Part shown: one piece after another, positions 28,791 to 47,098 of the stretch
How the letters are laid out: each line of letters starts with the position of its first letter
How positions within the stretch are numbered: position 1 is the first letter of the stretch
Source: Natrinema versiforme JCM 10478
GTDB lineage: Archaea; Halobacteriota; Halobacteria; Halobacteriales; Natrialbaceae
Reading direction: 5' to 3'
DNA: 64,000 bases
NCBI RefSeq assembly: GCF_000337195.1
Contig: NZ_AOID01000013.1
Span: forward strand, 91,011 to 155,010
Made by a program: the position numbers and the translations under genes
The notes under the pieces: model-generated
The model's input: only the letters and a program-made list of their open reading frames with translations
Databases searched by the model: none
What the model was told of the DNA's origin: nothing

Positions 28791-29059
28791 CCTTTTTGGA
28801 CCACTTAGGTAACCAAGAAGCCGCGACAGTCCGTTTGAAGAGACATTCGGATAACGGAGAGAGCCGGTCACCCTTCTCGGACATCGCATCGCAATCACCT
28901 CACGTCGTATTCGGCCCCTGCAGCAACCTTGAGGATCGAGTGGGCGAACTACAGGTTCGTATCCGATTCGACGCGGGTGGCTGATGCGTTATACGCGACA
29001 CCCGGGTAACTGGTCCGCGAACGAAACTGTCTTTCCGGCTTGCACACAATGGACCGACG
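28791..29059. other. Divergent intergenic region between tatA and the peroxiredoxin gene
   Basis: Apart from the tatA promoter, I see no coding frame with haloarchaeal character. GCGTTATACGC (about 28984-28994) is a short palindrome in the half nearest the peroxiredoxin gene and might be a control site. Confidence 0.3.
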
Positions 29060-29539
29060 ATGGTAACAACTGGAGACGCCGCACCCGACTTTACCGCACC
29101 GCTCGCAAACGGCGACATCGAGGAGTTCACGCTCTCCGAGCGCCTCGAGGACGAAGCACCGATCGTCCTCGCCTTTTTCCCCGGCGCGTTCACCGGTGTC
29201 TGTACCACCGAGATGTGTACGTTCCAGGACCGCCTGGCCGCGTTCAACGATCTCGACGCCACCGTCTACGGCGTCAGCCGCGACTCGCCGTTCACGCTCA
29301 ACGAGTTCCGCGAGCAGAACGGCCTCGAGTTCGGGCTCATCAGCGACTACAACAAGGAGATCATCGACGACTACGGGATTCCGATGGACTTCGCCGATCT
29401 GGGCGTCCACGGCGTCGCCAAGCGCTCCGTCTTCGTCATCGACGCCGATGGCGAGGTCGCCTACTCGTGGGTCAGCGACGACCCCGGCGTCGAACCCGAC
29501 TACGACGAGGTCGAGGCCGCAGTCGACGACCTCTCCTAA
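29060..29539 (+). CDS. Peroxiredoxin (AhpC/TSA family, Bcp/AhpE-like)
   Basis: 159 residues, thioredoxin fold. The peroxidatic Cys48 is in FPGAFTGVCTTEMC, with the conserved P-x-x-x-T-x-x-C; Cys53, five residues later, is a possible resolving Cys as in atypical 2-Cys types. GVSRDSPFTLNEFREQNGLE and VFVIDADGEVAYSWVSDDP complete the family core. It reduces hydrogen peroxide and alkyl hydroperoxides in the cytosol; the electron donor is unknown. It complements KatG further along. Confidence 0.9.
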   Translation: MVTTGDAAPDFTAPLANGDIEEFTLSERLEDEAPIVLAFFPGAFTGVCTTEMCTFQDRLAAFNDLDATVYGVSRDSPFTLNEFREQNGLEFGLISDYNKEIIDDYGIPMDFADLGVHGVAKRSVFVIDADGEVAYSWVSDDPGVEPDYDEVEAAVDDLS

Positions 29540-29570
29540 CGCTGCACGGACACCGCGACCGTCGCAGGGC

Positions 29571-29578
29571 TTTTTTAG
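29571..29578 (+). promoter_or_regulatory. TATA element for the HD-domain gene
   Basis: TTTTTTAG is centred 25 bases before the ATG at 29599, consistent with a leaderless transcript. The T-run may also end the peroxiredoxin transcript, whose stop is about 30 bases upstream. Confidence 0.5.
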
Positions 29579-29598
29579 TCCGCAACCGACCTACCGGT

Positions 29599-30414
29599 AT
29601 GAGCGACTCCGCTGTCGACGAGGATTCCCGTCGCGTCTATACTCCCGACGACGATCACAGCTTTCCCGACGAGAAACTAAATTCGGTCCTCGAGTTCATC
29701 GACACCGACGAGGAGATCGCGGCCTATCTCGAGGCCCAGAACATCAACGCCGTCGACCGGATGCGGTACAACGATCACGGCACTAAACACATCGAGATCG
29801 TCCGCAATCGGGCGTTGTGTCTCTACGACCTGCTCAAGGCGGGCGATGTCGATTTCAACGGCGCGCGCCAGCAGGGACTGGCCGAGGAGGACGAATCGGT
29901 CATCGTCGCGCTGGCGGCGACGCTCCACGACGTCGGCCACATCGTCCACCGCGACAGCCACGCCTACTACTCGATCCCGCTGGCCGCGGACATCCTCGAT
30001 CGGATCCTCCCCGAGTTCTACGGCGTCGGCGACGCAGTCCGGATGAAAGGCGAGGTCCTACACGCGATCCTCTGTCATCACACCGCCGAGACCCCGTTGA
30101 CCACCGAAGCCGGCGTCATCCGTGTCTCCGACGCCCTCGACATGGAACGCGGTCGCTCCCGGATCCCCTACGAGTCCGGCGGCCGTGGCATCAACACCCT
30201 CTCGAGTCAGGCCATCAGCCGCGTCTCGCTCCAGCGGGGCGACACCACGCCCGTCATGGTCGAGATCGAGATGACCAACGCCGCCGGCGTCTATCAGGTC
30301 GACAACCTGCTCAAGGCCAAACTCGAGGACTCCGGGCTCGAAGACCAGATCCGGATCGTCGCGCTCAACACGAACGAGAACCGCGAGCAGCTAGTCGAGC
30401 GGATCGAGCTCTAA
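29599..30414 (+). CDS. HD-domain metal-dependent phosphohydrolase
   Basis: 271 residues from ATG at 29599. The HD core includes NDHGTKHIEIVRNRAL (first His ligand), ATLHDVGHIVHRDSHAYYSI (the HD pair near residue 112), LHAILCHHTAETP and IRVSDALDMERGR (last Asp). These are the H...HD...H...D metal ligands of the superfamily. The C-terminal part (PVMVEIEMTNAAGVYQVDNL) is a separate alpha/beta extension. The substrate is probably a nucleotide or phosphoester, undetermined. Its stop is seven bases before the structured element at 30422. Confidence 0.88.
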   Translation: MSDSAVDEDSRRVYTPDDDHSFPDEKLNSVLEFIDTDEEIAAYLEAQNINAVDRMRYNDHGTKHIEIVRNRALCLYDLLKAGDVDFNGARQQGLAEEDESVIVALAATLHDVGHIVHRDSHAYYSIPLAADILDRILPEFYGVGDAVRMKGEVLHAILCHHTAETPLTTEAGVIRVSDALDMERGRSRIPYESGGRGINTLSSQAISRVSLQRGDTTPVMVEIEMTNAAGVYQVDNLLKAKLEDSGLEDQIRIVALNTNENREQLVERIEL

Positions 30415-30421
30415 GACCCAC

Positions 30422-30645
30422 CTTTTGCCCTGCGGTCTACCGCGCTGGTGACTTCGTCACACAGCGCGGCGTCCCTCGGCAAAAGCTGGACCAAAAGCAC
30501 TCCTCCCTCCGTTCGCTCGCGGTGCTCGCTTCACATCAGTCGTCGGCCCGCGAGCGCCTTCGGCGCTCGCGGCGGGTTTCGGGTACCTGCCTGCCCTTCC
30601 CCGAGTCACGAGTTCCTCGCAATGCTCGGAACTCGCTCCCGGCCA
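30422..30645 (+). repeat. Multi-hairpin repeat element, copy A, after the HD gene stop
   Basis: Hairpin 1: CTTTTGCC (30422-30429) pairs with GGCAAAAG (30478-30485), enclosing CCGCGCTG/CAGCGCGG and GTGAC/GTCAC (30440-30469). A fixed block AAAAGCACTCCTCC is at 30493-30506, then CAGTCGTCGGCCCGC from 30537. Hairpin 2: CCGCGAGCGCC (30548-30558) with GGCGCTCGCGG (30562-30572), whose tip can form a C(TTCG)G tetraloop. Hairpin 3: CGAGTTCC (30609-30616) with GGAACTCG (30628-30635). The same block order recurs, inverted, at 45686-45949 with different but compensating stem sequences. Not coding. I do not know this family. Confidence 0.7.
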
Positions 30646-30666
30646 TTCAGGTCAGTCGATATCTAC

Positions 30667-30891
30667 TTAGGCGAGTTCGTACCGTCCATCCTGCCGTTCG
30701 AGGTAGCCCCGGTCCCGAAGCGTTCCGGTGATCGAGAGGATCGTCCCCTTCGTGACCGCGAGGTCGTCACAGAGGTCGTCAGCGCTCGCGCCGTCGCTGG
30801 CGGCCAGATACAGGTAGACCAGCTTCGCACGCGCGGAATCGAGATCGGTTGGGATCGACACGTCGAGGTCCGTCGTCGCTGTTTGGTTCAT
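30667..30891 (-). CDS. Small winged-helix DNA-binding protein
   Basis: 74 residues. After a disordered start, SARAKLVYLYLAASDGASAD and DLCDDLAVTKGTILSITGTL form helices 1-3 of a winged helix-turn-helix, and RDRGYLERQDGRYELA is the wing. The size fits the MarR/TrmB-like mini-regulators common in haloarchaea. Target and ligand are unknown. A TATA-like element at 30915-30923 lies 28 bases from the ATG. Confidence 0.85.
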   Translation of the reverse strand: MNQTATTDLDVSIPTDLDSARAKLVYLYLAASDGASADDLCDDLAVTKGTILSITGTLRDRGYLERQDGRYELA

Positions 30892-30914
30892 ACACGACCC
30901 TGTGTGTTTCGACG

Positions 30915-45685: not shown

Positions 45686-45949
45686 TGGCCGGGAACGCGG
45701 TTCGCCGCACTCACGGCGAACCGCGTAACCCGGGGGAGGGCAGGCATTTCACCGAAACCCACCGCGAGCGAAGCCGAAGGCTGAGCGAGCGGGCCGACGA
45801 CTGACTCGGAGCGAGCGGTTGCGCGGCGCTACGCGCCGCGAATAGACGAGCGGTGAAACCGCGAGTCAGCGAGCGGAGAGGAAGGAGGAGTGCTTTTGAT
45901 CGAAATTTTACCGAGGGCCGCCCTCGGCAGCCCGCAGCGTAAAATTTCG
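45686..45949 (-). repeat. Multi-hairpin repeat element, copy B, after the acyl-CoA dehydrogenase stop
   Basis: Inverted relative to copy A. Hairpin 1: CGAAATTTTAC (45901-45911) with GTAAAATTTCG (45939-45949), enclosing CCGAGGG/CCCTCGG (45911-45927). The shared block AGGAGGAGTGCTTTT ends at 45897. A middle region not in copy A carries CTGACTCG/CGAGTCAG-type arms (about 45800-45870) around CGCGGCG/CGCCGCG. Next comes the shared GGGCCGACGACTG block and the GCCGAAGGC tip (TTCG tetraloop on the minus strand). Hairpin 3: GCGGTTCGCC (45697-45706) with GGCGAACCGC (45715-45724). It starts three bases after the gene stop at 45953 and ends against the P-type ATPase remnant. Confidence 0.7.
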
Positions 45950-45952
45950 GTT

Positions 45953-47098
45953 CTAGTCGTCTAAGAGCTCCCGCGCAATCACGTTCTTCTGGATCTCTGT
46001 GGTGCCCTCGTAGATCTGGGTGATCTTCGAGTCCCGGTAGAAGCGCTCGACGGGGAAGTCGTTGACGTAGCCGGCCCCGCCGTGGATCTGGACGGCCTCG
46101 TTGGAGACATCGACGGCGACGCGGGAGGCGTACTCCTTGGCCATCGAGGCGAGTTTCGTGATGTCGTTGCCCTGATCGACGTTCCAGGCGGCCTTGTAGG
46201 TCAGGTTGCGTGCGGCCTCGGTCTTGGTCGCCATGTCGGCGAGTTTGTGCTGGATGGCCTGGAACTCCGAGATGGACTGGCCGAACTGCTCGCGGTCCTC
46301 GGCGTAGTCCAGCGCGGCCTCGAGTGCGCCTCTCGCGATGCCGAGTCCCTGCGCGGCGACGCCGGTTCGGGTGGCGTCGAAGAACTGCATCTGCTGGAGG
46401 AAGGCGGCGTCGCGGTCGCCGACGAGGTTCTCCTCGGGGACGCGGACATCGTCGAAGATTAGTTCGGCGGTGTCGGAGGCGCGGATGCCGAGCTTGCCGG
46501 TGATCTTGTCCGCGGAGAAGCCATCGCGATCGGCCTCGACGATGATCTGGCTGAAGCCGTCGTAGCGGCTCTCGGCGTCGGGATCGGTCTTACAGAGCAC
46601 GACGAAGAAGTCGCCGACGGTGCCGTTGGTGATCCACATCTTGTTGCCGTTGATCACCCACTCGTCGCCGTCCTTCTCGGCGCGGGTCGAAACCGAAGAG
46701 ACGTCCGAGCCGGTGTCGGGTTCCGAAATCGCCGCGCCGGAGATCTTCTCGCCCAGCGCGACGGGCTCTAAGTAGCGTTCCTTCTGGTCTTCGGTCCCGA
46801 ATTCGCGGATGGCCTCGGTCCCGAACGAACAGGCCATGATCGAGAGTGCGATGCCGGGGTCGTGGGAGAACAGTTCCTCGGCGATCAGCGCCGACTCGAG
46901 GGTGGAGTAGCCCGCTCCGCCGTACTCGATGGGGATCGAGGAGCCGACCAGTCCCATCTCGGCGGCTTCGTCGACGATCTCGTGGGGGAACTTCTCCTCG
47001 GTGTCGTACTCCTCGGCGTTGGGGACGATCTCGTTTTCGGCGAACCGACGGACCTCGTCGCGGATCTGCTGCTGTTCTTCGCTGAGTCCGAATTCCAT
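45953..47098 (-). CDS. Acyl-CoA dehydrogenase (short/branched-chain type)
   Basis: 381 residues, standard family length. IPIEYGGAGYSTLESALIAE, then FAD/substrate strands AAISEPDTGSDVSSVSTRAE and WVINGNKMWITNG; RVPEENLVG; the C-domain has QIHGGAGYVNDFPVERFYRD and the catalytic Glu in ITQIYEGTTEIQKNVIAREL (Y-E-G-T position). It forms the trans-2-enoyl-CoA and hands electrons to ETF. It is divergently transcribed from the hydroxyacyl-CoA dehydrogenase/hydratase fusion, 115 bases away, so the two consecutive beta-oxidation steps probably share control. Confidence 0.94.
   Translation of the reverse strand: MEFGLSEEQQQIRDEVRRFAENEIVPNAEEYDTEEKFPHEIVDEAAEMGLVGSSIPIEYGGAGYSTLESALIAEELFSHDPGIALSIMACSFGTEAIREFGTEDQKERYLEPVALGEKISGAAISEPDTGSDVSSVSTRAEKDGDEWVINGNKMWITNGTVGDFFVVLCKTDPDAESRYDGFSQIIVEADRDGFSADKITGKLGIRASDTAELIFDDVRVPEENLVGDRDAAFLQQMQFFDATRTGVAAQGLGIARGALEAALDYAEDREQFGQSISEFQAIQHKLADMATKTEAARNLTYKAAWNVDQGNDITKLASMAKEYASRVAVDVSNEAVQIHGGAGYVNDFPVERFYRDSKITQIYEGTTEIQKNVIARELLDD

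Follow-up and report, generated by a model that had tools for sequence, protein, structure and literature searches.

The multi-hairpin element that follows the HD-domain gene in the window (the 64,000-nucleotide stretch of DNA analysed in this study) is a member of a modular palindromic gene-end family, the full cassette of which is about 200 nt long. About 30 copies were found in the genome of Natrinema versiforme (4.19 Mb in 72 contigs), including copies A and B of the window. Judged from its sequence, the element may be a gene-end transcription terminator/insulator that probably acts in both directions, a reading that we consider close to an even call, and termination is predicted to be strongest against antisense read-through. 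The ending of archaeal transcripts, and the way in which neighbouring transcripts are kept apart in a compact genome, are understood only in part, with T stretches making up most of the signals described. A conserved 200-nt cassette that follows gyrase, chaperonin, replicative polymerase, ribosomal and SRP RNA genes would be a discrete object for testing this.

Copies A and B in the window

Both copies described in the initial annotation were recovered in place, and their common blocks were confirmed in the window. Copy A (30418..30645, + strand) begins 3 nt past the TAA stop codon (30412..30414, +) of a gene with a Pfam HD domain (28984-30414, +), and copy B (45686..45949, - strand) begins 3 nt past the TAG stop codon (45953..45955, -) of an acyl-CoA dehydrogenase gene, assigned by Pfam. 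Hairpin 1 of copy A (30418..30489, +) is formed by the arms CCACCTTTTGC (30418-30428) and GCAAAAGCTGG (30479-30489) with one C·C mismatch, and its T4 tract (30423..30426, +), the predicted sense termination signal, lies 8 nt past the stop codon. Two A4 tracts (30481-30484 and 30493-30496), with 8 nt between them, correspond to two T4 tracts on the minus strand (30481..30496, -), which are the predicted antisense termination signal. The remaining parts of copy A, all on the + strand, are the conserved unpaired block AAAAGCACTCCTCCCTCC (30493..30510), a variable spacer or hairpin 2 region (30511..30536), the conserved block CAGTCGTCGGCCCGC (30537..30551), hairpin 3 (30548..30572; arms CCGCGAGCGCC/GGCGCTCGCGG, loop TTC) and a distal module (30588..30645), which is present only in part of the family and consists of TGCCTGCCCTTCCCCGAGTCA, hairpin 4 (30609-30635; arms CGAGTTCC/GGAACTCG) and CTCCCGGCCA. 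On the - strand, copy B comprises hairpin 1 (45901..45949; arms CGAAATTTTAC at 45949-45939 and GTAAAATTTCG at 45911-45901), a T4 tract (45944-45941) that is also 8 nt past the stop, the conserved blocks AAAAGCACTCCTCCTTCC (45880..45897) and CAGTCGTCGGCCCGC (45789..45803), and hairpin 4 (45697..45724; arms GCGGTTCGCC/GGCGAACCGC). The covariance model matches G000:C13:121423-121520 and G000:C13:136890-136964 span hairpin 1 and block 1 of copies A and B, respectively.

Within the window, AAAAGCACTCCTC occurs exactly twice, with no further site at up to 2 mismatches (shuffle expectation at 2 mismatches, 0.54), and GGGTTTCGG-N5-TGCCTGCCC also occurs exactly twice (expectation at 3 mismatches, 0.07). 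The block CAGTCGTCGGCCCGC was found twice without mismatch, and the 16 additional sites at 3 mismatches are about what chance would give (18 found versus 13.5 expected). The predicted RNA fold of copy A was better than that of all 200 dinucleotide shuffles (z -4.6), and that of copy B was better than 199 of 200 (z -4.3). The initial annotation had reported three hairpins with arms of 8, 11 and 8 bases. These hairpins are real, but the 11-base middle arm of copy A is lost in copy B and in most copies read, which retain no more than a short inner hairpin and CCGC/GCGG. Similarly, GGGTTTCGG, which had been listed among the fixed blocks, is common to copies A and B but is not family-wide. The first two blocks are also separated by a variable hairpin or a pyrimidine-rich spacer, which had been overlooked. 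Copy A sits between the HD gene and a 74-aa TrmB/HTH-like ORF (below Pfam cut-offs; 30667-30891, -), which is convergent to the HD gene.

Architecture of the family

In a full copy, the stop codon is followed by hairpin 1, a 3-nt linker, AAAAGCACTCCTCCYTCC, a variable hairpin or spacer, CAGTCGTCGGCCCGC and a small hairpin, to which part of the copies add the distal module TGCCTGCCC..CCC, a hairpin and CTCCCGGCCA. The outer stem of hairpin 1 carries TTTT in its 5' arm and AAAA in its 3' arm, and the inner hairpin is variable. The most constant features of the family are the T4 tract just past the gene and the two A4 tracts, which are U4 tracts on the antisense strand. Of 87 element host genes, 84 have a T4 tract no more than 20 nt from the stop, as compared with 24 of the 289 remaining genes of these loci; in 81 of the 87 hosts, the tract starts 4-10 nt past the stop. 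The A4-N5-9-A4 arrangement was present in 142 of 168 distinct copies, a set for which the block itself served as search bait, and in 32 of 33 model-found copies from distant families. The T4/A4 step of the hairpin 1 stem is nearly invariant, an invariance that partly reflects the preference of the search patterns and the arm filter for T-runs; pairs 2, 4, 5 and 10 exchange freely.

Several other regularities were observed. The hairpin 1 stem is near-exact apart from a C·C mismatch that has been retained. Across loci L001-L283, the 3' letter of stem position 5 tracks the last letter of the linker (C-G in 44/45, G-C in 26/27, A-T in 10/10 and T-C in 56/72). Extra multi-hairpin modules of two kinds are nested within hairpin 1 (L044, L058, L176, L221, L252 and others; L038, L055, L198 and L230); one kind, GTCGTTCG..GTGATGACGA..GAACCAC, lies at the inner loop, and the other, AATCTTCAAAAGAG..CTCTTTTGGACCTCGCGG.., lies in the 3' arm. 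Moreover, a second intergenic palindromic repeat, GCGGTTCGGAACGAACGCAGTGAGTGAGAACCGC-like, adjoins the copies at L172 (upstream) and L057 (downstream) in opposite orientations.

Distribution among haloarchaea

The block pattern gave 29 sites in the N. versiforme genome, 28 of which were judged real. A covariance model built from 21 copies gave 32 matches in this genome at E<=0.01 and 36 at E<=1, some of the latter overlapping or due to chance. The initial annotation had proposed a covariance model search of haloarchaeal genomes, and this search returned many homologues. Matches were found in 40 of 61 genomes (this genome and 60 relatives), including all 29 same-genus genomes, some with only 3 matches. 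Across the class, matches were obtained in 213 of the 391 genomes sampled, representing 57 of 86 genera, in a scan that scored up to 10 candidates per genome and may have missed weak copies. Among the matches listed, the named carriers of the block are mostly Natrinema, Haloterrigena, Natronococcus, Halovivax, Natrialba and other Natrialbaceae, plus Halobacterium, and 6 of the 80 listed block loci are chance matches in bacteria.

The 168 distinct copies analysed below come from loci found by block or model searches (L255-L283, n=29, included); this set is biased to well-conserved copies and includes orthologues. Copies less than 700 nt from the locus start or less than 250 nt from the locus end were left out, and seven chance loci were dropped (L059, L183, L191, L206, L231, L242 and L254). 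The distant-family set contains 33 copies from 14 genomes of other families, among the matches listed (34 loci minus the misplaced L295).

Placement relative to genes

As anticipated in the initial annotation, many copies lie downstream of stop codons: in 124 of the 168 distinct copies, a same-strand stop was located -5 to +4 nt from the first stem base. Of the remaining 44, 18 had a stop elsewhere between -60 and +30 nt and 26 had none there. The 124 stop-adjacent copies fall into 31 host groups, 21 of which were seen more than once, under a crude ORF rule by which at least one singleton (L203) is a false ORF. Read by eye, the host genes presumably include those for TFS, GyrB, the PolD large subunit, thermosome, ribosomal L10e, EngB, PurF and geranylgeranyl reductase. 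Of the 28 copies in the N. versiforme genome, 20 begin no more than 4 nt from a same-strand stop (19 by scoring, plus L057, in which the first hairpin is doubled). The other eight comprise one copy after the SRP RNA, three antisense copies near gene starts (S8e, S6e and L046) and four members of a short subfamily (L035, L040, L050 and L052, the last being 13 nt behind a stop). The opposite-strand gene starts upstream of L041/L078 and of L039/L076/L212/L236 are those of genes that we take to encode ribosomal proteins S8e and S6e, respectively. In distant families, 26 of 33 copies were -13 to +2 nt from a stop; for 24 of these the distance was -5 to +2 nt, and two or three of the ORFs are doubtful.

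Furthermore, the element was found behind genes that are not translated. The stem begins 10 nt past the end of the SRP RNA model in three genomes, the element lies 2 nt past the end of a tRNA-Ala gene (L309), and in L176 it directly follows an apparent duplicated tRNA-Leu 3' end. These hosts suggest that the element marks transcript ends rather than stop codons, and a stop-codon-specific function was rejected on this ground.

Among 150 listed places, neighbouring copies less than 1 kb apart comprised 10 facing pairs, 1 divergent pair, no tandem pair and 2 overlapping calls; facing copies are expected if every convergent gene has its own boundary. With a crude gene caller, which missed the HD gene in the window, the next gene was convergent for 62 of 115 element hosts versus 200 of 482 background genes (p = 0.02), a modest excess, and TGA stop codons were rare in hosts (6/122 versus 283/580 neighbouring genes). 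Only 1 of 15 same-genus gyrB orthologues without the element uses TGA, so the depletion of TGA may belong to the genes and not to the element.

Stem changes and the level of selection

The double changes in stems reported for copies A and B were borne out in the family, where pairing is indeed kept through them. In the outer stem of hairpin 1 (21 aligned copies, 315 cells), 24 cells had changed on both sides and still paired, none had changed on one side and still paired, and 8 were unpaired. RNA-level selection normally passes through G·U pairs and tolerates them. In 154 of the 168 copies (the 14 with nested inserts or misplaced arms left out, and TTT in the arm required by the filter), the outer-stem mismatches were C·C 57, T·T 14, G·U 12, G·A 12, C·T 12 and A·C 9. 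Moreover, 239 of 273 distinct hairpin stems were perfect, a share inflated by seeding on four exact pairs in a survey that spans up to 240 nt past block 1 and includes some flanking sequence; the others had 15 A·C versus 7 G·U, a comparison that is symmetric to the seeding. Thus, G·U shows no clear excess over A·C in either stem set. The sense RNA was also less stable than the antisense RNA in 158 of 163 copies (mean difference, 12 kcal/mol), which is presumably due in part to the pyrimidine-rich unpaired blocks; three of three SRP RNAs from the same loci were more stable in sense, opposite to the element.

The initial annotation had taken the double changes as a sign of selection on RNA structure, a conclusion that these data do not bear. 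Selection on sense RNA structure was rejected because of the lack of a G·U excess, the weaker sense fold and the absence of one-sided paired changes, and exact upkeep of a DNA palindrome or replacement of whole hairpins fits the stem pattern better. Two-sided stem changes without G·U intermediates can arise from the upkeep of a DNA palindrome, so that covariation statistics alone would class this element as a structured RNA, which is a warning for method builders.

Orthologous sites

Comparison of orthologous sites showed both inheritance and loss. In the gyrB-gyrA gap, the element was present in 6 of 21 same-genus genomes, and the other 15 had short spacers. Seven distinct gyrB copies from this genus and another carry the locus-specific tail GGATGCAGTGC (one with a single change); their hairpin 1 stems differ, and their hairpin 3 stems are of two types. 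Between the gyrB copy of this genome and that of another genome (G015), the sequence was 98.7% identical from block 1 on, whereas hairpin 1 was 81% identical and the last part of gyrB 92%. At the HD gene, the element was present in 9 of 21 same-genus genomes, with a remnant in one (L121). In one gyrB copy (G001, L102), hairpin 1 is decaying, and this copy and the remnant suggest that loss of the element is tolerated. Taken together, the gyrB and HD gene comparisons indicate that many copies look inherited at their sites, with losses and with rewritten hairpins. As a separate observation, base pairing is possible between the gyrB tail GCAGTGC(TT) and AAGCACT of block 1, and would enclose a larger, multi-branched structure (L056, L085, L092, L099, L102, L198 and L210).

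Relation to known systems

The assessment that no described family fits the element held as far as the searches went. With Rfam 15, only tRNA was matched in the window, and the element was below any gathering threshold; among 18 element loci, three SRP RNA genes and one tRNA were matched and never the element, and L039, L041, L076 and L078 gave nothing at E<=1. Among the matches listed, the accessible open-access PMC texts contained no description of the element. Haloarchaea, "Halo" names and Natrinema are not mentioned in the available portion of the RepRanger paper (PMC12306157), nor are "Halo" names in that of the paper on GTAG/CGTC REPs (PMC3733652), and Weinberg 2010 does not mention Halobacteria, haloarchaea or Haloarcula.

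The element resembles REP/BIME repeats, which are dispersed extragenic palindromes with many copies, a mosaic of short blocks and a frequent location near stop codons. It differs from them in its much longer conserved unpaired blocks and constant T4/A4 core, in its mostly single orientation and tight spacing, and in its occurrence past SRP RNA and tRNA genes. The GTAG/CGTC-tagged class of REPs was rejected, as GTAG occurred within 10 nt before the stem in 5 of 154 copies and CGTC in 3 of 154.

The element also resembles archaeal U-tract terminators (the T stretch of Haloferax; aCPSF1/FttA sites) in having T4 shortly past the gene, then G/A and C; its two U4 tracts, a pair like that of the aCPSF1 site, lie on the antisense strand only. 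According to the accessible parts of two reports, ordinary archaeal terminators are T stretches for which a hairpin is not strictly required (PMC8716108, PMC7237163); in contrast, the T4 of the element is embedded in a conserved palindromic cassette of about 200 nt. Like bacterial intrinsic terminators, the element has GC-rich hairpins near a T tract, and on the antisense strand the hairpins precede the T tracts; in sense, however, the T tract does not follow the hairpin but forms part of its 5' arm. A scan for bacterial-type terminators in the copy A region (window 30300-30900, both strands) gave none, and a terminator of this type was rejected.

Predicted role and alternative explanations

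The presence of one U4 tract in sense and two in antisense at the exact ends of both coding and non-coding genes led us to predict a terminator/insulator. On its way out of the gene in the sense direction, RNA polymerase would encounter the T4 tract 4-10 nt past the stop codon, or shortly past the end of a tRNA or SRP RNA, and would terminate. Hairpin 1 and the unpaired pyrimidine-rich block would aid this step, and a factor of the aCPSF1/FttA type could bind the block. A polymerase arriving in the antisense direction would first pass through the GC-rich hairpins and then, immediately ahead of the gene, through two U4 tracts, and termination there would block antisense read-through into the gene. 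The stems may diversify through exchange of whole hairpins or through fold-back (palindrome-templated) DNA copying, with both arms changing in one event, and not through stepwise compensation in RNA.

In the parts of the literature that were available, Haloferax transcripts are described as ending at T stretches with termination at a C (PMC7237163), two U4 tracts as the minimal aCPSF1 site in Methanococcus (PMC8716108), and internal operon terminators with partial termination as existing in M. maripaludis (PMC10450193). Where the element sits between gyrB and gyrA, no TATA-like promoter was seen by eye upstream of gyrA, so termination at these copies can only be partial. The sense strand carries only one U4 tract, and a terminator alone leaves the conserved blocks CAGTCGTCGGCCCGC and TGCCTGCCC unexplained. 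A wider reading, which we hold to be doubtful, is that the element is a class-wide boundary element of Halobacteria, that is, a bidirectional terminator made of DNA palindromes with free letters, which would be rewritten by fold-back copying and would insulate a conserved set of core genes and stable RNAs against read-through on either strand. That such rewritten stems mimic RNA covariation without selection at the RNA level is part of this reading and is likewise a tentative, rather unlikely proposal.

Alternatively, the element may be a mobile or formerly mobile palindromic repeat of the REP/BIME kind that settled at gene ends as the least harmful places and has no role in termination, an explanation to which we give only a limited chance. 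Three copies in the N. versiforme genome have an identical core of 147-149 nt in unrelated flanks, and the variable presence among close relatives at gyrB and the HD gene, the mosaic of palindromes and blocks and the nesting of extra hairpin modules in some copies point in the same direction. However, the recurrence of the same host genes across genera and the gyrB tail point to vertical inheritance of many copies, and random insertion does not explain the tight spacing and single orientation. Moreover, no viral contig contains the exact block, copy B gave no match in phages, and a single plasmid record, that of a 987-kb replicon of Natrinema thermotolerans, matches copy A over 36% of the length of the copy; on these results, viral or plasmid cargo was rejected as well. 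REP/BIME repeats are spread by RAYT (Y1-type) transposases, and the N. versiforme genome has three Y1 transposase (Y1_Tnp) genes, which were compared with the element by position alone.

An improbable explanation, in our view, is a 3'-UTR RNA element selected as sense RNA structure, such as an mRNA stabiliser, a processing site, a protein-binding regulon or a stop-proximal regulator of translation. It would agree with the orientation along the gene, the nearness to the stop codon, the strong predicted folds of copies A and B, the depletion of TGA in hosts and the pyrimidine-rich unpaired blocks, and the accessible part of one report states that E. coli REPs less than 16 nt from the stop affect translation (PMC12306157). 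The stem and strand-folding data described above nevertheless run against it, and the element also stands past SRP RNA and tRNA genes, which are untranslated. The attC sites of integrons also lie behind stop codons and keep structure over sequence, and the element shares both properties, with free sequence in its hairpins; yet a single-stranded DNA recombination site of the attC type is hardly credible. The hosts read as single, fixed chromosomal core genes in conserved order, the gyrB-gyrA pair is present whether or not it carries the element, no cassette array stood out in the loci read, and the conserved blocks are different.

The short subfamily

The short subfamily (L035, L040, L050, L052, L204, L214, L220 and L234) includes near-identical copies in unrelated flanks and looks recently mobile. 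The suggestion of a structured mobile repeat, made in the initial annotation, is partly right in that this subfamily looks recently copied; most stop-adjacent copies, however, have hosts that recur across species. Several copies of the short subfamily carry an extra outer inverted repeat (ACTACAG..TGC / GC..CTGTACT).
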